Positions 6,921 to 32,063 of a DNA stretch of 37,624 bases are shown here, one piece after another; position 1 is the stretch's first letter, and every line of letters begins with the position of its first letter. Source of the stretch: Bacteroidota bacterium (lineage in GTDB: Bacteria > Bacteroidota > Bacteroidia > UKL13-3); the NCBI GenBank assembly GCA_034439655.1, contig JAWXAU010000103.1, positions 1-37,624 of the forward strand. Direction: 5' to 3'. Both the position numbers and the translations under genes were made by a program. Below the pieces are notes generated by a model, which saw only the letters and a list, made by a program, of their open reading frames with translations, did not search any database and was not told where the DNA came from.

Positions 6921-9900
6921 TTATCGTATCAAATGTACTACTCCATTTTTACTATACTCATAACCATCCATTCCGCGTCCTCTCAATACCCACATATATA
7001 CGCCATCTGGCATCAATTTGTTGCGTGACGTACCATCCCACCCAACTGTATGATCTGTGGTATAAAATACCTTCTGGCCCCAACGGTCGTATACTATAAA
7101 CTCAAATTTCTTTATCTCATCATCAAGGTTTTTGTTGAATACTGATATCAAAATGGGTTTAAATACTTCATTCTTCAATGGCCCCCTATCATTAGGCGTG
7201 AATGCATTGGGAATCCATATACGTGAAGGAACAACTGCACAACCTATGTTAGAGATGCTCGTATCGCCAAAGACATCGTTTTCGAGAGCCATAATCCTAT
7301 AACAATAATTTGTGGTTATCTCTTCGTGTACTTCTTTATCTATATAAGGAGTATCGAATGTATTAAGGGTTGCAAGGGTTTGCCATACTCCATTGAAGTC
7401 GAGTTGCACTTTGTATTCCTTTATTCCATTTGCCCAAAACTCATAAGGAGTCCACGCCAAATGCACATATTCATTTTCTACTCTGGCCTTTAACAAAATG
7501 GTTTTGCCTATATCGGTACTTGTTGGGCTATAGCTTCCACAATAGTCCTCCACACTTACTCGATAGGTATAAGATGTGTCCTTTACATCTACATTTACAT
7601 CGGTAAAACTTGTTTGGTTATTAGCCACAATCCCATAACGGTTTATCCAGGTATTTCCTCCATCGATACTCCTGTCAAGAATATAGTTTTTGATAGCACT
7701 GTGAGCACTTCCATTCCAACTTGTATGGGTATATCTGTCATTTACTACCGTAGACCTTGTGATACCTACAGCCGTATCGGGGCTGCTATATGGAGGGTGG
7801 TTCATACTCTTGTTACTTAAAGATTGGTATAACCCATTTCGGCTATACGCCAATACCACATACTGATAGTCAGAATCGCAAAGAAGTGAGTCGACTATTG
7901 AAGTATCAGTAGCTTGCATTGTTTTAAATAAGTTTAGTGTGCCGAAAGTACCGAAAAGTCCTGTATTCCTATATACCTCATACTTCGCTATTCCATTTAC
8001 GCCCCAACCTATATAAGGAGTCCATGATACCAAATTTGTCATAGGAGCATAGGTAGATGCTTTTAGCAACATGGTGGTATGCACCACACTGGGCAATGAT
8101 GTATACTTACAAGTATCGGTTGTTGTTATAAAGTAACTATAGGTTTGACTATTTACCAAGTTTGCACCACCATCATTAAATGTAGTATCAGTAGTATTTG
8201 AGCTACTATATACATTCAGAGGGTTGGGGTCTAACCTATATAACTTGTTGTCATCAAAACTAGAATCGGTATTTATATCCCAAAATGCAATTATTTGCTC
8301 AAAACCAGAAGTTGTATCTACTGTCACATAAGTAAGTTGTGTAACAACGGGCGGAATAGAATCATCTACAAATATGAAATTATTTTTGGTTATGGTGTCT
8401 TTGCACCCATTAGAATTGGTAATATAGAATGCTACTGTTTTAAAACCTGCCGTTGCATAAATATGGGCCGCGGGAAACTGATTGGTGTCGGTTGTGGCAT
8501 CTCCAAAATCCCATAACCAGTTTGTTAAGGCTACGTCCGAAGTACTAACATCGGTGAAAGAAACATTATCCCCAAAACAGGTACTTGGTTTATTGCTTAC
8601 AAAGTCAGCTACTGGTTTTATATAAACGGTGAATAAGTTAATAACTGTAGTTGAATCAACGCATCCTAATGAACTTGTTGCAATCAATTTCACCGAGTGT
8701 TTGCCAGGAGGCAATGATACAACGGGGTTTTGCACAGTAAAATCTATGGTGCCATCCAAATCTATATCCCACTGGTAATTATTTGCATACAAGGTTGAAT
8801 CACCGAATAAGGATGCTGTAAATGGTTCACAGCCTGTGGGTATTGGTGTGTACATTTTAGGTTTCGGTTTGTCGTTCACTATAACACGGGTGGTTATGGT
8901 AATACTGTCTGGGCAATTATTCAAATTATTGGCCCATAGTTTTACGTTATACTGTCCTACACCAAAACCGATTTTGGGATTTGCCAAAGTGGAAGTAACC
9001 CCATTTCCAAAATCCCACTTATAACTATTGGCATATGATGAACCATTGGTAAAAACAACCACTAGGGTATCACAACCCAGTGAATCGCTAACAGTATAGG
9101 AAGGAACAGCCCTGCGGTATACGGTTATCAGATTATTCTTAGTTAAAGAGTCTACACATCCGTATAAATTAAAACAATATTGTTTTACCGTGTAAGTGCC
9201 TGGTATATAACTATGCGATGGATTTCTCAAATTAGAAAAAGTACCATCTCCAAAATCCCATAAAACACTATCGGTAATAGTAGATGAATCTGTAAACTGT
9301 GCAGTGAAAGGTTCGCAGCCTTGTGTTTTGTCGACCCCAAATTTAGGTTGTGGAATATCATAAACTTCTACGAGGGTATCATAGGTAAGCGAGTCTGCAC
9401 AATTATTTACATTGTTTGCCCAAAGTTTAACATTATAATACCCTGGGGTATAAGTGTGCGTTGGATTTATTGCTGTCGATGTTTTAGTATCTCCAAAATC
9501 CCACGAATAGCTGCTTGCATTTGTTGAAGTATTGGTAAACGTGGCAAACAGACTATTACATTCTGCTGTGTCATTAACTGAGAAAGAAACTTTTGCTCTT
9601 TTGTGGCTCACAATATGGTTTGTTTTAATAATGGAATCGGCACAGCCCGAGCCGTTAGTTACCCATAGTTTAACAGTATAAGTGCCAGGATTAAAATGAA
9701 TTATTGGGAACTGGCTAGTAGAATCAGTTCCGTGTAAATAACTGAAAGTAGAAGGGGTGATAGTCCAACGCCAAACTGTTGTATACTTTGAAGTATCTGT
9801 AAGCTGTACTTCCATAGGCTCACATTGTTGGGTTGTATCTGATCTAAAATATGCTTTAGATCTCTTATATACCACCACGCTATCTGGGTTTTTGTTATTT

Positions 9901-12900
9901 GCCAACGGATACTGAGCATAACATCCAGCACCGTCGGTTGCTGACAATGATGGATAATACACACTATACAACGAATTTCCCGGCGAATAGTAGGTATGGC
10001 TCTTAGGAACACTACCATTTGTTTGTGTAGTACCATCGCCAAAGTCAAATGTAGGCTGCTTAATTTTATAGCTTTTGTCGACAATAGAAATATTAAGAGG
10101 CTCACACCCGATACTGTTAATCAAATCAAATTTAGGAACCGGCCCATTAAATCTGAGATAACAAGGAATAAACAAAGTATCTGAGCAACCATTGGCGTCC
10201 GTGGTAATCAAAGTAACATCCTTACACGAGTCATTTGTTTGGTAATAGTTAACCGCACTGTCGGAAGTAGTGGTTAAGGTATTTCCATCTCCAAAATCCC
10301 ATTTATATAATACTGCGTTGATAGAACTACCTGCGTAAAAACGAGCTAACTGAGGAGCACAATAAAAGAAGGTATCAGAGGCGTAATATTTAGGGACACT
10401 TCTTTGTATACAAATGGTATGAGATATTGTATCACTGCAGGTTCCTTTGTATACTGTTTGTCTTATCTGATAACAACCTGAATCCAAAAACTTTACTTTA
10501 GGGCTTGTGGGTGTTCCGTATACAGTTGAATCAAAAATTACTTTTGATGCCATAGAGGCGGGTAACACAGTCCATTTAACCGAAGAAGGGCTATTCTGCG
10601 AACCATCAGTTATAGATATGTCTTCTTTCATACATCCTCCTTGTGGAATATTGAACCCTGCAACTACACCAATTGTTACATAACCGACTTTAACAATATT
10701 GGGTGCTGTGCAACTATCTGCATTTTTTATGGTCAGGGTAACATCGTATGAGCCATTGTCTCCAAAAGTAATATTGGTGCTGGCAGAATTCGGATTTGCT
10801 ATAGTTACATTGGTACTGGGGTTTACTGACCAAGAATACTTTAGTGCTCTTGAATTTTTGATTGGATGATTCGTTGAATCTACATTAAGTGTGTCGAATT
10901 TAATAGCGGTGTTTTTACACCCTGAAGTAGTAACTGCTTTAAAATCACCTCCGATTGAGCTTACTTTTATATACTTCATCCGTGCAATACTGTCTTTGCA
11001 GAATCCAGGTTTATTGACCACATAGGCTACGTCATATATGCCCCAATCATTAAAAACTATAGAGGGTGCCCCAGTTAGCCATACTGTACTATTCGTGTTT
11101 TTATAATACCACGTTTCGCTTAGAACTAAGACAGGTGATGAGAATCCCTTGGGTGACACATACGAAGTAAATGAAACCTGATTGCCGGCACAGATAAAAT
11201 TTGTGTCTGCGTGAATAGAATCAATCTTTGGGGAAGCCACTGTAATTGTGTCCCAGATAGTGTCTCTACAGCCAAAATCAGTATAAACCATTAATTGAAC
11301 CAAATATTTTCCTGTATCGGTAAACTTGTACCGCATCGTGTCTTTAGGGGAATTAAAAGAAGTTAATTTATACCGAAGAATTTGGGACGTATCTAGTTTA
11401 TTGAACAAAGTAAATTCCTTCCTTATTGTATCAATAGAAAAAGCCGCTGTTGTATTTTTTATTAAAACAGAGTCATAGGGGCACAGGGTCTTGGGGCTTA
11501 TGGACATAGTAGCCACTGGGTCTTTTATACTCAAAAAATTATTTAGCGTAACCACATCAGAACAACCATTTGTGTTCGTAACAGTTAACCTTACTGTATA
11601 AACGCCACCCTTCAAAGGTGTCGTTCGTAGGGTATCGCCCGTAACAAGGGAATCTGTCTTGTTGGGATTCCCAATAGTGCCTGTAGAATCAGACACTTCC
11701 CATTTATAGGTATTTGTTCCCAATTTAGGAACAGTGGAAGTATCGGCCTTTAGTCTAAATGTATAAGGCGGTGAACAATATTTTACTACACCATCAATTG
11801 TGCTTGCAGAAGCTTTCGGATACAGCACTCTTACAGGCCAACTATAATACTTTTTACAACCGTTCAAGGTGAAACGAAGTTGCTGGGTACTAATACCGAA
11901 ATTTGCAAAAACCCCAACAAACGTATCTGATTTTGCACTGGGCTGATATACCGAATAATTGTTTGAAGAATACCAATATGCAACACCGCCTGGGTATGAA
12001 CTAAAGTTCTTTATAATAAATGTATCTTTCTCTCCTTTGCAAAAAGAAGTATCATTAACACTAACTTGAAGAGCTGCGGAATCGCCCGTTCTTAAATAAT
12101 TTTTCTTGTATTCAGTAAAAGTACACCCTACTGAATTCGTTACTTGCAAAGACACATCATACTGCCCTACTGATGAATAAGTAATGGTTGCAGGTGTTAA
12201 GTTTGTGTCCGTCGAAGGGTTACCACTCGGGAAATTCCAAAGATAACTGGTTAACGTTGTTCCATTACTGCTCACAGAAGGTGTGAATTTCGCTTTGTGA
12301 ATTAAGCATCCAGCCGTGTCGGGAGTGGAAAAATCGACACTAACCTTGTTATATACACAAACAGCTGAATCATAGGTCTTACTAATAGTACAACCATCCG
12401 TATTTTTAAGACTCACTATCACTTTTTTACAGCCTGTGGTCGTAATTTTATGTTTAATATTGCTTTTGTTTTGATATACTGTACCATCAATAATAATGAT
12501 GCTGCTTACAATATTTGGTGTGTTGTCAATAAACGTTAAGGTATCAGGACCATTGCATAATATCGATGGCGAAAAGGTAACGTTGGGCGTAGTCGCTACG
12601 CCTAATTTGTACATGCTATCTCTCACTATAGTACAAAGTAAATTACCATTCCCGTCAAGCACTTCCACTTTTATATTTATGTATCCGTTGTAGCCAACAT
12701 ATTGTTTGCTAGCGGTATCAGCATACTGATTTATTGAAGTTGCCCCAAAATAGTATTTAAACTGCGAGCCTGATGCATAACCTGAAATTTTAAGTCTTAC
12801 CGTATAATAATCGCAGGAGCTGTCCTTATCCATGTATATGGTAGAATCGGCAGAATTGTTGTAGTTACGAATGGTTTTTACAGCCTTCAAAACCAAGCTA

Positions 12901-12998
12901 GAACACTGAGCATTTGCTTCGTTGTTTAAACTTGAAATCAGCAAGAACATGCTTGCTATTATTGAGGTTAAAACAATACGTTTGTAAAGTTTTATCAT
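6921..12998 (-). CDS. Giant PKD/fibronectin-repeat surface protein with type B T9SS (gliding motility-associated) C-terminal domain
   Basis: The protein has 2025 residues from ATG 12998; a TTG 27 bases upstream is less likely. Residues 1-30 form a signal peptide (KRIVLTSIIASMFLLISSL). Most of the protein is tandem PKD-like beta domains, each opening with a GC motif and carrying WDFGDG-type turns (for example YSWDFGDTKTSTAINPTHTY); the clearest are encoded at about 8500-10300. About 350 residues of fibronectin-III-like sequence follow (NGIAKYEVYRNTG). The last 90 or so residues are the CHU_C/type B sorting domain (WIPNAFTPNDRG ... FEFIVYDRWGQKVF ... PDGVYMWVLRG). Family knowledge says such proteins cross the outer membrane through the type IX system and act as adhesins or gliding/S-layer-like proteins; the ligand is unknown. 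No PorP/SprF partner gene is adjacent. It probably shares a transcript with tilS, 61 bases upstream. Confidence 0.92.
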   Translation of the reverse strand: MIKLYKRIVLTSIIASMFLLISSLNNEANAQCSSLVLKAVKTIRNYNNSADSTIYMDKDSSCDYYTVRLKISGYASGSQFKYYFGATSINQYADTASKQYVGYNGYINIKVEVLDGNGNLLCTIVRDSMYKLGVATTPNVTFSPSILCNGPDTLTFIDNTPNIVSSIIIIDGTVYQNKSNIKHKITTTGCKKVIVSLKNTDGCTISKTYDSAVCVYNKVSVDFSTPDTAGCLIHKAKFTPSVSSNGTTLTSYLWNFPSGNPSTDTNLTPATITYSSVGQYDVSLQVTNSVGCTFTEYKKNYLRTGDSAALQVSVNDTSFCKGEKDTFIIKNFSSYPGGVAYWYSSNNYSVYQPSAKSDTFVGVFANFGISTQQLRFTLNGCKKYYSWPVRVLYPKASASTIDGVVKYCSPPYTFRLKADTSTVPKLGTNTYKWEVSDSTGTIGNPNKTDSLVTGDTLRTTPLKGGVYTVRLTVTNTNGCSDVVTLNNFLSIKDPVATMSISPKTLCPYDSVLIKNTTAAFSIDTIRKEFTLFNKLDTSQILRYKLTSFNSPKDTMRYKFTDTGKYLVQLMVYTDFGCRDTIWDTITVASPKIDSIHADTNFICAGNQVSFTSYVSPKGFSSPVLVLSETWYYKNTNSTVWLTGAPSIVFNDWGIYDVAYVVNKPGFCKDSIARMKYIKVSSIGGDFKAVTTSGCKNTAIKFDTLNVDSTNHPIKNSRALKYSWSVNPSTNVTIANPNSASTNITFGDNGSYDVTLTIKNADSCTAPNIVKVGYVTIGVVAGFNIPQGGCMKEDISITDGSQNSPSSVKWTVLPASMASKVIFDSTVYGTPTSPKVKFLDSGCYQIRQTVYKGTCSDTISHTICIQRSVPKYYASDTFFYCAPQLARFYAGSSINAVLYKWDFGDGNTLTTTSDSAVNYYQTNDSCKDVTLITTDANGCSDTLFIPCYLRFNGPVPKFDLINSIGCEPLNISIVDKSYKIKQPTFDFGDGTTQTNGSVPKSHTYYSPGNSLYSVYYPSLSATDGAGCYAQYPLANNKNPDSVVVYKRSKAYFRSDTTQQCEPMEVQLTDTSKYTTVWRWTITPSTFSYLHGTDSTSQFPIIHFNPGTYTVKLWVTNGSGCADSIIKTNHIVSHKRAKVSFSVNDTAECNSLFATFTNTSTNASSYSWDFGDTKTSTAINPTHTYTPGYYNVKLWANNVNNCADSLTYDTLVEVYDIPQPKFGVDKTQGCEPFTAQFTDSSTITDSVLWDFGDGTFSNLRNPSHSYIPGTYTVKQYCFNLYGCVDSLTKNNLITVYRRAVPSYTVSDSLGCDTLVVVFTNGSSYANSYKWDFGNGVTSTLANPKIGFGVGQYNVKLWANNLNNCPDSITITTRVIVNDKPKPKMYTPIPTGCEPFTASLFGDSTLYANNYQWDIDLDGTIDFTVQNPVVSLPPGKHSVKLIATSSLGCVDSTTVINLFTVYIKPVADFVSNKPSTCFGDNVSFTDVSTSDVALTNWLWDFGDATTDTNQFPAAHIYATAGFKTVAFYITNSNGCKDTITKNNFIFVDDSIPPVVTQLTYVTVDTTSGFEQIIAFWDINTDSSFDDNKLYRLDPNPLNVYSSSNTTDTTFNDGGANLVNSQTYSYFITTTDTCKYTSLPSVVHTTMLLKASTYAPMTNLVSWTPYIGWGVNGIAKYEVYRNTGLFGTFGTLNLFKTMQATDTSIVDSLLCDSDYQYVVLAYSRNGLYQSLSNKSMNHPPYSSPDTAVGITRSTVVNDRYTHTSWNGSAHSAIKNYILDRSIDGGNTWINRYGIVANNQTSFTDVNVDVKDTSYTYRVSVEDYCGSYSPTSTDIGKTILLKARVENEYVHLAWTPYEFWANGIKEYKVQLDFNGVWQTLATLNTFDTPYIDKEVHEEITTNYCYRIMALENDVFGDTSISNIGCAVVPSRIWIPNAFTPNDRGPLKNEVFKPILISVFNKNLDDEIKKFEFIVYDRWGQKVFYTTDHTVGWDGTSRNKLMPDGVYMWVLRGRGMDGYEYSKNGVVHLIR
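8503..10301 (-). repeat. Repeated PKD-domain coding segments with identical 11-base core
   Basis: The 11-mer TGGGATTTTGG (encoding the Trp-Asp-Phe-Gly turn of PKD domains) occurs on the minus strand at 8503-8513, 9007-9017, 9250-9260, 9493-9503 and 10291-10301. Three neighbours (9007, 9250, 9493) are exactly 243 bases apart, or 81 codons, giving a regular tandem array of domains. Confidence 0.7.
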
Positions 12999-13059
12999 AT
13001 ATCTATTTGTGTATAAAATTAACATGCGAATTTAGAGGTTTGAAGGTGAAAATTAAAAA

Positions 13060-14388
13060 TTATTTTACTACGCTTATTATCAAGTTGTTTTCATTGTTTT
13101 CTTGTGCTTTAAATCTTTCTGAAATTCTCAAAAAATCTACGCTAACTAACTCTCCATCCGAATTTTGTATTACAAAGACCTGCTCCTTATCAAAAAGGGT
13201 CATCTTAAGGTCGGTAAGCATGTCGCTTACTTTTTTAGCCCCGCCAACCCCTTTTAGCATTATTTTATCCGATGCTTCCCAGTGCCTTAAGGTAAGAGGG
13301 TAAGAGAGATTGCTTTTGCCTATGGTAAGGGTTTCACCACCTAGCGATGCTCCGCTGGAAGCGTGTTGAATTTGCAATTCTATATCGCCCACTTTTTGTC
13401 GGAACGAACCTATTTGTTCCTCTGTAATATTATATCTAGGTAATTTTCTTTCCATTTTTTTTCTAAGAATTAAACAGTCGCGGTCTTTTAAAATTTGGTG
13501 GCTTTGGGTCTCCCATATTTTGCCAGGTTGTTTATGTAATGACAAAAAAATGTTCTTTGTGGTTGCGTAATTGAAACCATATTTTTTTAAAATTTCCCAT
13601 AAGAGTGCCTCACTTATGTTGTTTTTCAATAGCTTATCTATATTTATATAGGCAAATTCTCCCTTTTTATGAATACATTTTTTTTCCATTTTTTTTAAAT
13701 TGGCTTCAAAAAACGCTATGTACTGGAGGGTTGCCCGACTATTGTCATAAACTGTTTCTACAATATTGGGATTCAACTTTTTCAATAACGGTATAACTTC
13801 GTTTCTTAAAAAGTTGCGGCTATAGTTATTGCTGTTGTTACTTAGGTCTTCTCTCCACCCTATTGAAAGGAGATCAGTCATTCTGTCAATGTCCTTACGA
13901 GTATAACACATTAATGGGCGAACGATCTTGTTTTTCTTGTTTCCAATACCAGCATATCCTCTAAGTTTAGAACCCTTTATCAAGTTATGTAAAATAGTTT
14001 CCAAGTTATCATCTTTGTGGTGGGCTGTTAAGATATATTGAAAACCATGTTCAATGCTAAGCTGCTCAAACCAATCATACCTTAACTTACGTGCCGCTTC
14101 TTGGGTTGAAAATTTATGCTTAACTGTGTATTCCTTTGTGTCAAATTTAATAGCGAAAAACGGGATATTAAATCGTTGGCAATACCCCTTTACAAAATCC
14201 TCGTCAGCTATGCTATCATTGCCCCGGAGCTGGAAATTGCAATGTGCCACTGATATATTATATCCAGCTTCTTTCAGTAAATGGAGCATGAGCATTGAGT
14301 CTCTCCCGCCACTTACTGCCGCGATTAGCTTATCGTTTTTAGAAAAAAGTGCATTTGATTCGATATGTTTTTCAAATTTTGTGTACAT
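13060..14388 (-). CDS. tilS: tRNA(Ile)-lysidine synthase
   Basis: TilS converts C34 of tRNA-Ile(CAU) to lysidine with ATP and lysine, so that the tRNA reads AUA codons. The 442 residues fit the long form of the family. The N-type PP-loop SGGRDS sits at residues 26-31, followed by the family signature TAHHKDDNLETILHNLIKG at about 118-136 and the downstream RPLMCYTRKDI. The C-terminal substrate-binding domain is present (LTLRHWEASDKIMLKG). ATG 14388 is supported by a promoter 21 bases upstream. The gene is divergent from the OstA-like gene and lies upstream of the giant PKD gene. The coding genes of this window use ATA heavily, which fits the need for this enzyme. Confidence 0.96.
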   Translation of the reverse strand: MYTKFEKHIESNALFSKNDKLIAAVSGGRDSMLMLHLLKEAGYNISVAHCNFQLRGNDSIADEDFVKGYCQRFNIPFFAIKFDTKEYTVKHKFSTQEAARKLRYDWFEQLSIEHGFQYILTAHHKDDNLETILHNLIKGSKLRGYAGIGNKKNKIVRPLMCYTRKDIDRMTDLLSIGWREDLSNNSNNYSRNFLRNEVIPLLKKLNPNIVETVYDNSRATLQYIAFFEANLKKMEKKCIHKKGEFAYINIDKLLKNNISEALLWEILKKYGFNYATTKNIFLSLHKQPGKIWETQSHQILKDRDCLILRKKMERKLPRYNITEEQIGSFRQKVGDIELQIQHASSGASLGGETLTIGKSNLSYPLTLRHWEASDKIMLKGVGGAKKVSDMLTDLKMTLFDKEQVFVIQNSDGELVSVDFLRISERFKAQENNENNLIISVVK

Positions 14389-19593: not shown

Positions 19594-19706
19594 TATAACC
19601 ATCACACCCTCAAATTTCAAACTGCCAACTGTAACCTGTGTAATGTGAAATGCAAACTACTAAATAAAAAATCTTCCAACCCAACCCAACCATCCCTAAA
19701 ATAAAA

Positions 19707-20315
19707 TTGTCATTACAACAACCCTTGATTAAGCAAAGCCATATAGACCAATTAGACGAGCAGAAAATCATTGACGGGGCAATAAGGAAAGACCATGCCT
19801 GCCAAAAGTGGATTTATGAAAAATTCGCTAACAAAATGATGGCTGTTTGTTTACGCTACACAGCCGATGCTGATGAGGCCAAGGACTTGCTGCAAGATTC
19901 GTTCATTCGCGTGTTCGATTACCTGCACCAATTTGGGCACAAAGGCTCGCTTGAGGGATGGGTAAGACGGGTGGTTGTAACCTCGGCACTCAACCATTAC
20001 AATGTGGCAAAAAGGAGGTTTACGGATGTAGACATAGACGCAGTAGACTGGGAAAAAGGGGCATCGTACACGCCTTATAACGCCCAGTACACCATGGAAG
20101 AGTTGACCATGTTGATAAAGCAACTACCGCCCATGGCACAAACGGTTTTCAATCTATTTGCCGTGGATGGATATAGCCACAACGAGATTGCGGAGATGCT
20201 TAGTATTAGCGACGGCACATCGAAGAGCAATTTGTTTAGGGCAAGGGCATTATTACAAGAAAAATTAAAAAATTTAGAACAACATAGTTATGGACAAGTT
20301 AGACAACATAGATGA
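19707..20315 (+). CDS. ECF-type RNA polymerase sigma factor
   Basis: The protein has 202 residues. Region 2 lies at about 25-95 (WIYEKFANKMMAVCLRYTAD, DEAKDLLQDSFIRVFDYLHQF), and region 4 with its helix-turn-helix at about 135-190 (LPPMAQTVFNLFAVDGYSHN, EIAEMLSISDGTSKSNLFRA). The start is TTG 19707: it is the only start codon upstream of region 2 without a stop, and the next Met would remove part of region 2.1. The 3' end overlaps the next gene by 26 bases, so the two are made together. ECF factors are usually held by a co-expressed membrane anti-sigma factor, and the neighbour has a fitting layout. The regulon is unknown. Confidence 0.93.
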   Translation: MSLQQPLIKQSHIDQLDEQKIIDGAIRKDHACQKWIYEKFANKMMAVCLRYTADADEAKDLLQDSFIRVFDYLHQFGHKGSLEGWVRRVVVTSALNHYNVAKRRFTDVDIDAVDWEKGASYTPYNAQYTMEELTMLIKQLPPMAQTVFNLFAVDGYSHNEIAEMLSISDGTSKSNLFRARALLQEKLKNLEQHSYGQVRQHR

Positions 20316-21615
20316 TTTGTTTGCCAAATTGAACAATGATGAAAAACAAACCCCAGCAGGGGTTTGGGAATATATCTTGGCCGATCAAAAAAGAAAAAAG
20401 AGAGCAGGTGTCCTTTGGTGGTACTATGGCTCCGCAGGGTTGCTATTGGTGGCGGGGCTTATGGGCTATTATCAGTTTAAAAAGGATAAAAAGCATTTGC
20501 AAGCCTATACAATAGCAAAAGCATTTGCAAACAACGATCTTGCTGCCAGCAACAATACTGATGCAAATAATAATGCTGTGGCACAAACACCCGATACCCT
20601 AAGGTTATCGGCAGTAAATAATATGGTATATTATACAGCCGAGGTGGCACTCGCTAAATATAAGGAGTATGCTAACACTACAGAGCATATAGTAGACAGG
20701 AACAGTGGCATGGTTGAGCCCGATATGAAAAATATAATCAAGCCTAATGATGTTGTTACTCGTACTGCCAATATGGAGTATGAAAAAGCGGAGGCTCCGC
20801 CAACAGATATTCGCCTTAATAAAAAAGACTTGAGCAAAGAAAAAGAAGAAAAAGATAAGACTATTAGAAAAACCCCTAACTCTAAAAGCCAAAAATACTT
20901 TGTGGAGGTGGCACTAACGGCTAATCGTTCTTACCGTACGCTAAGTGGAGATGCAAGCCTAAGCGAACATATAAACCAACGCAACCGCTCAGAGGTAGCA
21001 TTAATTACCAAGCCCGCACTAGCTATTACAGTGGGCAAGGAACTAAACAGAAATTGGAATATACAAACAGGGGTTCTGTATAATGTGCAGGGGCTGAGTG
21101 CCAGCTATACTGTATCAACCGCACAGAGGAAAGTGTTTGTAGATATTGACCCAACACTGAAGAAATACGATACCACTGCTAGTTATATATACATACAAGA
21201 CTCGGTATATAAACTGGAAAAAGGTATTAGTATAAACGGTGACCAAAAATATCATTATATAAGAATACCTGTTTTGGGCGAGTGGAAATTAGAAACACGC
21301 AAGCTTACTGTATATGCGGGTGGTGGCCTGTCGCTAAATATATTACTGGCAGCCCGAGGTGATGTGCAAGATTATCAAAGTGCCCAATCAGGTGTGTTTG
21401 TGCCCGTGACCCAATTGGCCTTGCAGCGTGTGGGTTGCGATTTTATGGGAAGGGCAGGTGTCCTTATGCCTATCTTTGGCAGGCCCGATATGAAAGTATC
21501 TTTTGGTTTCCGTGGCATGTTTAGCCCTGTCTCGGTGTTTGGCAAAGATGTACCACTCAAACAACATAACTACTCTTTTGCTCTTGAGTTGGGAATTAGG
21601 AAGATGCTGAAGTAA
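20290..21615 (+). CDS. Single-TM protein with cytoplasmic N-terminus and C-terminal beta-barrel-like domain (putative anti-sigma/sensor)
   Basis: The protein has 441 residues. Residues 1-38 are polar and basic (cytoplasmic), about 40-60 form a transmembrane helix (GVLWWYYGSAGLLLVAGLMG), about 65-200 are a low-complexity Asn/Ala/Lys-rich periplasmic linker (KKDLSKEKEEKDKTIRK), and about 200-441 have the alternating pattern of a PorT-like outer-membrane beta-barrel (NWNIQTGVLYNVQGLSASYT, YHYIRIPVLGEWKLETRKLT). The last residues are FALELGIRKMLK. The start lies inside the sigma-factor gene (26-base overlap). By analogy with other ECF loci, the short N-terminus may bind the sigma factor; this is inference, as no classical ZAS or FecR motif is visible. 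A helix spanning the inner membrane joined to a barrel-like domain is topologically odd. Confidence 0.78.
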   Translation: MDKLDNIDDLFAKLNNDEKQTPAGVWEYILADQKRKKRAGVLWWYYGSAGLLLVAGLMGYYQFKKDKKHLQAYTIAKAFANNDLAASNNTDANNNAVAQTPDTLRLSAVNNMVYYTAEVALAKYKEYANTTEHIVDRNSGMVEPDMKNIIKPNDVVTRTANMEYEKAEAPPTDIRLNKKDLSKEKEEKDKTIRKTPNSKSQKYFVEVALTANRSYRTLSGDASLSEHINQRNRSEVALITKPALAITVGKELNRNWNIQTGVLYNVQGLSASYTVSTAQRKVFVDIDPTLKKYDTTASYIYIQDSVYKLEKGISINGDQKYHYIRIPVLGEWKLETRKLTVYAGGGLSLNILLAARGDVQDYQSAQSGVFVPVTQLALQRVGCDFMGRAGVLMPIFGRPDMKVSFGFRGMFSPVSVFGKDVPLKQHNYSFALELGIRKMLK

Positions 21616-21674: not shown

Positions 21675-22928
21675 TTACCTCACTCCTGCTTCTACTATCT
21701 GCTGCACATTATACTGCCCCGCTTCCAGTTTTTCTTTTACTTCTTTAAAGGCTTTAATAGTTCTGTCTACATCGGCAACAGTATGCACGGCTGTGGGTAT
21801 CAAACGGAGCATAATTACATCTTTGGGTACTACAGGGTATACTACTATAGAGCAGAAAATATCATAGTTTTCACGCAAATCTAAAGTTAGTGCTGTGGCC
21901 TCTGGTATGGTGCCATTGAGCAATACTGGGGTTACAGGGGTGGTGGTAATACCTATATTAAAACCTGCATTCCTTAAACCGTTTTGTAGGGCACTTACTA
22001 TTTTCCATAGGTTGGCTTTTAGTTCGGGTTGTGTGCGTAGCAGTTCCAATCTTTTTCTTGCTCCCTGCACCAAAGGCATGGGCAATGATTTGGCAAATAT
22101 TTGTGAGCGGCTATTATAGCGTAAGTAGGTTATTACTTCTTTAGTGCTGCCTATAAAGGCACCTATAGAAGCCATACTTTTAGCAAATGTGCTAAAGTAT
22201 ATATCGATACCATCCATGCAGTTTTGCTCTTCTCCAGTGCCTGCTCCTGTTTTGCCCATGGTTCCAAATCCATGTGCATCGTCCACAAACAAACGGAAAT
22301 TATATTTTTCTTTTAGTGCTACTATATCTTTCAAATTGCCCTGTGCTCCACTCATACCAAATACGCCTTCGGTAATAAGTAAAATAGAACCGGGAGTATC
22401 TTTTACCAACTCGGTAGCTCGTTGCAATTGTTTCTCGGCACCGGCCACATCATTGTGTTTAAAAATGAAACGTTTGCCTGCGTGCAGTCTCACACCATCA
22501 ACTATACAGGCATGGCTTTCGGCATCATATACAATTACGTCGTGCCTGTCTACCAATGCATCAATGGCACTAACCATACCTTGATATCCAAAGTTGAGGA
22601 GGATGGTATCTTCTGTGCCTATAAAGGCTGCAAGCTCGCGTTCAAGGGCTTCGTGGTTATCGCTTTCGCCACTCATCATGCGGGCTCCCATGGGGTATGC
22701 CATTCCGTATTGTGCGGCAGCTTCTGCGTCGGCTTTGCGAACTTCGGGATGGTTGGCCAAGCCCAAATAGTTATTAAGGCTCCACACGAGTTTTTCTTTG
22801 CCCCTAAAATTCATGTGGGCACTAATGTCCCCTTCTAGTTTTGGAAATGTATAGTAGCCGTGCGATTGCTTGGCATGCATGCCCAAAGGCCCCATATTCG
22901 CTTCTAATTTCTTAAATAAATCCTGCAT
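21675..22928 (-). CDS. PLP-dependent alpha-oxoamine synthase (serine palmitoyltransferase/KBL/AONS family)
   Basis: The protein has 417 residues from ATG 22928. The frame extends to GTG 22955, but that segment contains the -7 promoter box. Family features are the small-residue NFGYQGMVSAIDAL segment, YDAESHACIVDGVRL, the Asp-Asp-Ala-His cofactor-ring motif (FVDDAHGFGTMGKTG), and the Schiff-base lysine Lys250 in YFSTFAKSMASIGAF. The family condenses an acyl-CoA with an amino acid. Bacteroidota often use such an enzyme as serine palmitoyltransferase for sphingolipids, but 2-amino-3-ketobutyrate ligase or another oxoamine synthase is possible. No other sphingolipid or biotin gene is nearby. It is transcribed away from recQ's end with a 103-bp repeat element in the gap. 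Confidence 0.85.
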   Translation of the reverse strand: MQDLFKKLEANMGPLGMHAKQSHGYYTFPKLEGDISAHMNFRGKEKLVWSLNNYLGLANHPEVRKADAEAAAQYGMAYPMGARMMSGESDNHEALERELAAFIGTEDTILLNFGYQGMVSAIDALVDRHDVIVYDAESHACIVDGVRLHAGKRFIFKHNDVAGAEKQLQRATELVKDTPGSILLITEGVFGMSGAQGNLKDIVALKEKYNFRLFVDDAHGFGTMGKTGAGTGEEQNCMDGIDIYFSTFAKSMASIGAFIGSTKEVITYLRYNSRSQIFAKSLPMPLVQGARKRLELLRTQPELKANLWKIVSALQNGLRNAGFNIGITTTPVTPVLLNGTIPEATALTLDLRENYDIFCSIVVYPVVPKDVIMLRLIPTAVHTVADVDRTIKAFKEVKEKLEAGQYNVQQIVEAGVR

Positions 22929-22942
22929 CGAGTTTTTTGCGG

Positions 22943-22950
22943 CAAAGATA
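22943..22950 (-). promoter_or_regulatory. -7 promoter element of the oxoamine synthase gene (TATCTTTG)
   Basis: An exact TAnnTTTG match on the minus strand, followed by GCC as at gmk, 14 bases before ATG 22928. No TTG at the normal distance. Confidence 0.55.
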
Positions 22951-22974
22951 GGCACCTTATGTATAATAACGTAG

Positions 22975-30980: not shown

Positions 30981-32063
30981 CTACTCCTCCGTCTCCACCT
31001 TCCCTATGCCCAGCCTCAACGAGAACACGTGTGAGTAAAGGGCGGCACTGCTGCCACCTATGTCGGTAAAGGCGTAATCAACCATCAGGTTATTTAGTTT
31101 CAGCCCCACGCCAATGGTCGGTTGCAGGGTGGTTTTGGTTTTGCCTAATATGTCTTTTTCCTTTTGGAAATTGTAGATTCCGACACGCAGAAAAACTATA
31201 TCGGCATAATTGGTTTCCACGCCCAGCGAGGGGTTCACGCTACCTGCACGGGTACTTATAAGGCTGTTGCGGCGGCCATCGGTGGTTATTTGCAGGTTGG
31301 CTTCGGGCAACATGGATATTTTTTCATTTAAGGTTATCTTGCGTGACACGCCACCTATAATGCGGGGTGTGGCCACCTCTAGCGAACTTTGCGGCACCAC
31401 ATTGCCTGTCTGCTGCAGTTGGGCCTTTTCGGTTTCGGTAAAGGTATATTTCCAACCTGTAAAGGTGAAGGTTACATCGCGGGCCATAACGGCAAAAATC
31501 CAGTCGTCTTTTTTGTGCTGCATTCCAAAATCGAACCCAAAGCCCCAAGCATTGGCAAAGCTACCAATGGTTCGGTGTATAAGCTTGGCCGTGCCGCCTA
31601 TGCTGGTATTGCCGTTGCGTAACATGTGGCTATAGGTGCCCATAAAAGCCCAGTCGGCAGCACTAAAGGTTTTAATGCGGTTATAATCTATCTCGCCACT
31701 GGGGCCACGCAGGTCTATGGTGTTCGGTATATTGTCTATTCCAAAACGGATGATACTAAAACCTCCCGCATTTTGGTCGTCGAAGCGTTTATACACCCCG
31801 CCATAGTCGTAATTGGCAATGCCTGAGAAGTAGTTGCTGTGCATTACCGAGAATTGGAACTTCTCCTTGGCACGCATTAAGCCTGCGGGGTTCCAGTATG
31901 CCGCCGATACGTCGTTGCACGAGGCTATAACGGAATTGCCCATACCAAAGGCTCTGGCTGATACGCCAATATTGAGGAACTCGTTGCTGTACTTACGCGT
32001 TTGAGCATACGTGTTAGTGATAAATAGATATAATACTACGAAGAAGGCGGCTTGTTTGAGCAT
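30981..32063 (-). CDS. PorV/PorQ-family outer-membrane protein
   Basis: The protein has 360 residues with signal peptide (LKQAAFFVVLYLFITNTYAQ) and a beta-barrel pattern to the end. The family mark is ARAFGMGNSVIASCNDVSAA followed by YWNPAGL at about 34-60, the FadL/UPF0164-like N-terminus of PorV and PorQ. True PorV and PorQ are T9SS components that link cargo to the outer-membrane attachment complex, so a role with the giant T9SS protein of this window is possible but unproven; Bacteroidota have several paralogues of unknown function. The region encoded at about 31000-31900 is visibly more GC-rich than neighbouring genes. Its -7 box ends 4 bases before the ATG. It is divergent from the AMP-ligase operon. 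Confidence 0.82.
   Translation of the reverse strand: MLKQAAFFVVLYLFITNTYAQTRKYSNEFLNIGVSARAFGMGNSVIASCNDVSAAYWNPAGLMRAKEKFQFSVMHSNYFSGIANYDYGGVYKRFDDQNAGGFSIIRFGIDNIPNTIDLRGPSGEIDYNRIKTFSAADWAFMGTYSHMLRNGNTSIGGTAKLIHRTIGSFANAWGFGFDFGMQHKKDDWIFAVMARDVTFTFTGWKYTFTETEKAQLQQTGNVVPQSSLEVATPRIIGGVSRKITLNEKISMLPEANLQITTDGRRNSLISTRAGSVNPSLGVETNYADIVFLRVGIYNFQKEKDILGKTKTTLQPTIGVGLKLNNLMVDYAFTDIGGSSAALYSHVFSLRLGIGKVETEE

Follow-up and report, generated by a model that had tools for sequence, protein, structure and literature searches.

Introduction

The closest described counterparts of the gene pair analyzed here come from gut Bacteroides and Phocaeicola. In Bacteroides thetaiotaomicron, Dma1/Das1 and Dma2/Das2 each pair an ECF sigma factor, assigned to group ECF21, with an adjacently encoded anti-sigma factor that consists of an N-terminal anti-sigma domain, one transmembrane helix, a disordered tether and a C-terminal barrel, and the phenotypes of dma1 and dma2 deletions are reported to require the cognate sigma factor (PMC13088901). 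The M0N98_03760-61/EcfO-Reo pair is described in the same terms: loss of the anti-sigma factor switches on the sigma regulon, and the system governs nigD genes and is triggered by antibacterial toxins and, in the case of Bacteroides fragilis, by oxygen (PMC9308784, PMC13114119). In B. fragilis and Phocaeicola vulgatus, the EcfO-Reo anti-sigma factor is presented as extending from the cytoplasm to the cell surface (PMC13114119), and it is poorly conserved between species (PMC9308784). The roles given for these published relatives are vesicle formation, regulation of glycan use and protection from antibacterial toxins.

Here we describe a pair of this design in a different Bacteroidota lineage. 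The window, by which we mean the whole stretch of DNA analyzed, is 37,624 nucleotides of contig JAWXAU010000103.1 from a Bacteroidota bacterium (lineage UKL13-3, assembly GCA_034439655.1). It encodes an ECF sigma factor whose gene overlaps that of a putative envelope-spanning protein, referred to below as the partner. An earlier note, made from the sequence alone, had regarded the partner as an unusual one-protein envelope sensor. The novelty in that proposal does not hold, because the same design has been published for Dma1/Das1, Dma2/Das2 and EcfO-Reo; such pairs being known from gut Bacteroides, the window pair would be another of a known kind.

Results

The sigma factor gene

The features of the locus are as follows.

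19687..19713, + strand: promoter-like two-block motif CAACC-N15-TTGTCAT, conserved in orthologues; proposed as the site that the encoded sigma factor recognizes
19725..20315, + strand: ECF sigma factor gene (Das-like), from Pfam matches and clade placement, with the start taken from orthologue alignment
20290..21615, + strand: Dma-like anti-sigma candidate, 441 amino acids; overlaps the sigma gene by 26 bases, and relatives have the sigma gene upstream
20290..20424, + strand: residues 1-45, the predicted cytoplasmic N-terminus and candidate for sigma binding, with a near-invariant Trp26, from the family profile
20410..20478, + strand: predicted single inner-membrane helix, residues ~41-63, from hydropathy, with the basic stretch KRKKR just before it
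20479..20904, + strand: low-complexity linker, residues 64-205, proposed periplasmic tether, from composition and fast change
20905..21612, + strand: predicted C-terminal outer-membrane beta-barrel domain, residues 206-441, from PF13568 and a profile match to free-standing outer-membrane proteins (OMPs)

The open frame of the sigma gene spans 19707-20315, and its identification as an ECF sigma factor is confirmed by matches to Sigma70_r4_2 (E 3e-14) and Sigma70_r2 (E 6.5e-10), both above the Pfam cut-offs. The start had been placed at TTG 19707; TTG 19725 is likelier, because it aligns with the TTG at which two same-genus orthologues start, and the distance to the TTG further upstream is not the same in them, being off by 5 bases. 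The 26-base overlap with the partner gene (20290-20315) was read correctly in the earlier note and recurs in the orthologous locus L002, with shorter overlaps in L003, L004 and L005.

Anatomy of the partner protein

Searches of the partner against Pfam and NCBIfam returned no anti-sigma family, in agreement with the earlier statement that no anti-sigma domain is visible, but the N-terminus is nevertheless a conserved domain of its own family. Of 54 partners, 51 contain the N-terminal unit (the model was built from 20 of them), and Trp26 is kept in at least 90% of the 24 partner rows. The description of this region as a basic cytoplasmic tail applies to residues 34-45, with a net charge of +5, and not to residues 1-33, with a charge of -5. 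In the partners L016, L055 and L062, two tandem N-terminal units were detected within the first 70 residues of each; by eye, the L016 and L013 partners seem to have three.

The single transmembrane helix is marginal in the window protein taken alone, with a Kyte-Doolittle 19-residue maximum of 1.37 at residues 41-59, and the top 17-residue hydropathy score of the protein is found at residue 339, within the barrel, and is reached in 1015 of 2000 shuffles. The hydropathy maximum of L002 likewise lies inside the barrel, whereas a helix is clear at the corresponding position in L003, L004 and L005 (1.67-1.92), that is, in three of the four orthologues. The linker is long and of low complexity as previously noted, its 142 residues being rich in K, A, N and T, a composition that suggests disorder.

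Support for a barrel-like C-terminus comes from homology: OMP_b-brl_2 (PF13568) matches residues 242-360 with E 9.8e-7 and 29.4 bits (cut-off 27), and the family profile matches free-standing OMPs. A partner without a barrel is therefore disfavoured by these matches. The partner ends in Lys, as do 8 of the 54 members in all, and 26 of the 54 end in Phe or Tyr. Single-sequence structure prediction gave no usable model (pLDDT 31.2, pTM 0.20), and a sequence search of the PDB found no relative (best E 0.34). Hydrophobic alternation in the C-terminal region was rejected as a barrel test: z is 4.55 for the window partner, 1.4-3.3 for four orthologues, and 2.1 and 2.6 for two FecR controls, so that the measure fails to part barrels from soluble beta proteins.

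Co-occurrence of the two genes

Relatives of the partner were found in 10 of the 117 genomes searched, the window's own genome included. An ECF sigma frame lies directly upstream and in the same direction in 13 of 14 distinct related loci from other genomes, the sole exception being L009, where the match falls within a 1323-aa frame. The related-locus search with P0001 in the genome contigs found no relative. With a profile of 24 partners (A1) and E up to 0.001, a search of 296 Bacteroidota genomes gave matches in at least 108, some of which will be free-standing barrels; this number is a lower bound because at most five candidates were scored for nearly all genomes. Among the matches listed, a sigma gene is upstream in 28 of 29 loci from other genomes (including L133, which is clipped by the locus end), and the one without it, L130, is a free-standing outer-membrane protein. 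The survey for the same gene pair thus bears out the association.

Between same-genus genomes, BLASTP identity is 91-93% for the sigma factor, 74-95% for neighbouring genes and 53-55% for the partner. Within the partner, the N-terminus and helix retain 78-83% identity in same-genus orthologues, the barrel 60-65% and the linker 32-33%. The surrounding gene order is conserved in the genus, so the pair is a settled chromosomal operon. Convergent with it is a gene on the minus strand (21675-22955) for a PLP-dependent enzyme of the aminotransferase fold (PF00155), by eye resembling the serine palmitoyltransferase or KBL type; it is kept beside the pair in two same-genus genomes and is not beside the related pair in L150.

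Relationship to the Bacteroides systems and to FecR

A search of the Bacteroides sp. GM023 genome with the partner profile identified two true pairs. L107 comprises a sigma gene and a 422-aa partner with an adjoining NigD lipoprotein gene, and L108 a sigma gene, a 346-aa partner and a third gene of 176 aa (DUF4943); they resemble the dma1 and dma2 types, respectively, as described in PMC13088901. A third candidate, L109, was rejected as a relative, since what the profile matched there is the helix of a FecR gene.

In profile comparisons, the C-terminal profile matched the barrels of the Bacteroides partners (97.6%, E 3e-12) and five free-standing OMPs of the window's own genome (96.9%, E 1.5e-10), and the N-terminal profile of 24 rows matched the two Bacteroides N-termini (96.2%, E 2.6e-9). 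FecR controls reached 23.6% (19 columns, helix only) and 0.0% against the partner profile. When the profile is cut down to its five closest rows, the C-terminal matches persist (77.9% and 93.3%), whereas the N-terminal match to Bacteroides falls to 6.2%, below the FecR helix at 64.9%; the N-terminal link to Bacteroides consequently depends on the wider family.

A sigma factor tree grouped together 52 partner-associated sigmas, among them those of the window and of both Bacteroides pairs; the branch that sets them apart has a support of 100/96 and is found in 99% of bootstrap trees. The other 36 ECF sigmas, from the window's own genome, Bacteroides sp. GM023 and one further genome, fall outside this clade, among them sigmas linked to FecR, for example at L107 (2755-3351) and L109. 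The tree omitted 26 repeat locus identifiers and the incomplete L122 and L133, and for the Bacteroides genome the loci covered 30 of its 78 matches to sigma regions. An ECF21 label could be extended to the window sigma by association.

In FecI/FecR systems with a TonB-dependent transducer, a signal at the outer membrane is passed to an inner-membrane anti-sigma factor and from there to an ECF sigma factor, and the barrel, the TonB-dependent receptor, is a separate protein. The window pair is not a system of this type. Pfam shows no FecR family in the partner at E up to 10, comparison with the FecR periplasmic domain profile gives 0.0%, FecR has no match to the partner profile past the helix, and the FecR-linked sigmas lie outside the partner clade.

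A promoter-like motif upstream of the pair

Both blocks of the motif at 19687..19713 are invariant in two same-genus orthologues, and L004 and L005 have the same blocks with the 15-base spacing, L004 with CAACT. The distance from CAACY-N15-TTGTC to the sigma start, likely or annotated, is 37 to 47 bases in the window and the four orthologues closest to it. The reduced pattern AAC-N18-GTC precedes 12 of 51 paired sigma genes, where 1.4 would be expected and 200 shuffles gave no more than 4, and 0 of 36 other ECF genes (0.9 expected); the twelve cases are not independent, as they come from five groups of related sigmas, and one of the sites (L125) falls inside a frame. Searches of three genomes with the strict pattern found, beyond the three operons, one site in the window's own genome, inside the coding frame 13060-14388, and no further intergenic site in that genome. 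G001 and G002 each have one site resembling it in sequence; beyond these, G001 has a single additional site and G002 has two. The search does not allow a regulon to be assigned. A general scan for sigma-70 promoters gave no excess (4 sites vs 6.2 in shuffles), and terminator-like sites numbered 6 vs 2.3.

Abundance of the pair in one genome

Seventeen proteins of the window's own genome match both Sigma70_r2 and Sigma70_r4_2; C138, C180, C87:11756 and C81, which match a single sigma region, were left out. In 11 of the 17 the sigma gene is followed by a partner of the window type, on contigs C103 (the window), C197, C165, C177, C64, C115, C87, C183, C74, C12 and C144. The N-terminal unit, to whose model most of them contributed, is present in all eleven partners. 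C177 has a different C-terminus, and the other ten are barrel-type or unassigned. Only three of the eleven reach PF13568 in the Pfam genome search, which indicates that divergence often puts the barrel beyond Pfam's reach; the C12 partner has no Pfam match whatever.

Large secreted PKD-domain proteins adjoin four of the eleven pairs (L051, L052, L055 and L062), two of them with a Por secretion tail, and it is possible that they are targets or clients of the pairs. Elsewhere in the window, the minus-strand frame 6921-13025 encodes a 2034-aa PKD-repeat-like protein with a C-terminus that by eye resembles a type IX secretion type B signal, and the frame 30981-32063 by eye resembles PorV/PorQ.

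Partners with a type IX secretion domain

The C177 partner (L052 1764-3579) combines the N-terminal unit with a helix and with a PKD-like stretch that does not reach the Pfam cut-off. At its C-terminus is a CHU_C domain (PF13585, 35.0 bits, cut-off 27), the Pfam name of which is type IX secretion signal. CHU_C thus stands in place of the barrel, and the associated sigma factor falls within the same sigma clade. A search for this class matched 282 of 294 genomes, mostly through the CHU_C domain alone. Among the matches listed, 9 of 12 loci (L154-L162) have a sigma gene directly upstream, a hydrophobic stretch and a match to the N-terminal unit; they include the own-genome locus and a shorter one of 288 aa, and the unit match of L160 is weak (E 0.17). 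No sigma gene accompanies L163-L165, which are ordinary CHU_C proteins. Our literature search found no report of an anti-sigma factor with a type IX secretion tail; the nearest case is PorA in PorXY-SigP signalling (PMC7712824).

Discussion

We consider it very likely that the window pair forms a Dma/Das-type operon of sigma and anti-sigma factor, in which the sigma factor is subject to a barrel-tethered hold. The proposed anatomy, a cytoplasmic sigma-binding end, an inner-membrane helix, a linker as long as the periplasm and an outer-membrane barrel, is supported by the family matches and by the wide co-occurrence of the pair, and the adjacent ECF sigma factor seems to be of the same clade as Das. 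Also counted in favor are the conserved promoter-like motif, the NigD neighbour of L107, as in the nigD-controlling Dma1/EcfO type, and the third operon gene of L108, as described for dma2 in PMC13088901. The conserved sigma factor with a fast-changing anti-sigma factor that is reported for EcfO-Reo has its counterpart in the identities of the window sigma and partner. Counted against are the marginal helix, the terminal Lys, the lack of a PDB relative, the pLDDT of 31, the N-terminal match that is lost with five rows, and the strict promoter pattern, whose one other site in this genome is within a coding frame. The window pair differs from Dma/Das in its low sequence identity and in having neither a NigD neighbour nor a third operon gene, and it is instead flanked by an AlbA_2-type gene and the PLP-dependent enzyme gene.

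That an unrelated frame happens to follow the sigma gene has a negligible chance of being right; the single matches without a sigma gene, L009 and L130, were all that could be found in its favor, and the survey of related loci refutes it, since the frame is kept and domain-structured in relatives with the sigma gene upstream in 13/14 and 28/29 loci. The second gene might encode an outer-membrane protein that is merely cotranscribed and is a target of the sigma factor rather than its regulator. Target genes are common in sigma operons, and gene overlap by itself indicates coupling only, but the partner begins with a cytoplasmic-type N-terminus, its Trp motif is conserved in 51/54 partners, and the free-standing OMPs of the genome start, by eye, with signal-peptide-like sequences. 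We set this explanation aside as highly improbable on account of that N-terminus.

An anti-sigma factor whose C-terminal beta domain is soluble or peripheral in the periplasm, rather than inserted in the outer membrane, is unlikely, if less so than a cotranscribed target. An inner-membrane helix and an outer-membrane barrel on one chain is an unusual topology, the alternation z values overlap those of the FecR controls without clear separation, and the partner has no terminal aromatic residue. Against this stand the PF13568 match above cut-off and the profile match to free-standing OMPs, and the relative Reo is described as reaching the cell surface (PMC13114119).

Under the preferred Dma/Das interpretation, the partner probably restrains the sigma factor and extends from the cell interior as far as the outer membrane. 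By analogy with the published relatives, the N-terminus would keep the sigma factor at the inner membrane, and the tether would span the periplasm to a barrel inserted in the outer membrane. Disturbance of the outer membrane, ligand binding by the barrel or its failed assembly could then end the hold, with release by pulling, proteolysis or failed insertion. The freed sigma factor would act on its own operon through the CAACC-N15-TTGTC site and on a set of envelope genes. The envelope-sensor idea is well supported by this analogy, and the envelope-spanning part of the original interpretation draws support from the family matches and co-occurrence, although the sensor is neither new nor the only one of its kind.

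A broader and more tentative proposal, which we think somewhat less probable than its opposite, is that this lineage has made the envelope-spanning anti-sigma factor its main ECF design and has swapped the outer end, so that the C177 class would serve at once as an anti-sigma factor and as a substrate for secretion, reporting on type IX secretion. Should the CHU_C class prove real, it would directly sense whether type IX secretion is functioning.

The pair extends to a further Bacteroidota lineage a sensor design investigated so far in Bacteroides and Phocaeicola from the gut, and the 11/17 found here show that within one genome the envelope-spanning pair can outnumber any other ECF arrangement. 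The 54-member set, the conserved N-terminal motif and the candidate promoter provide a resource for work on the interface, signal and regulon of these pairs.
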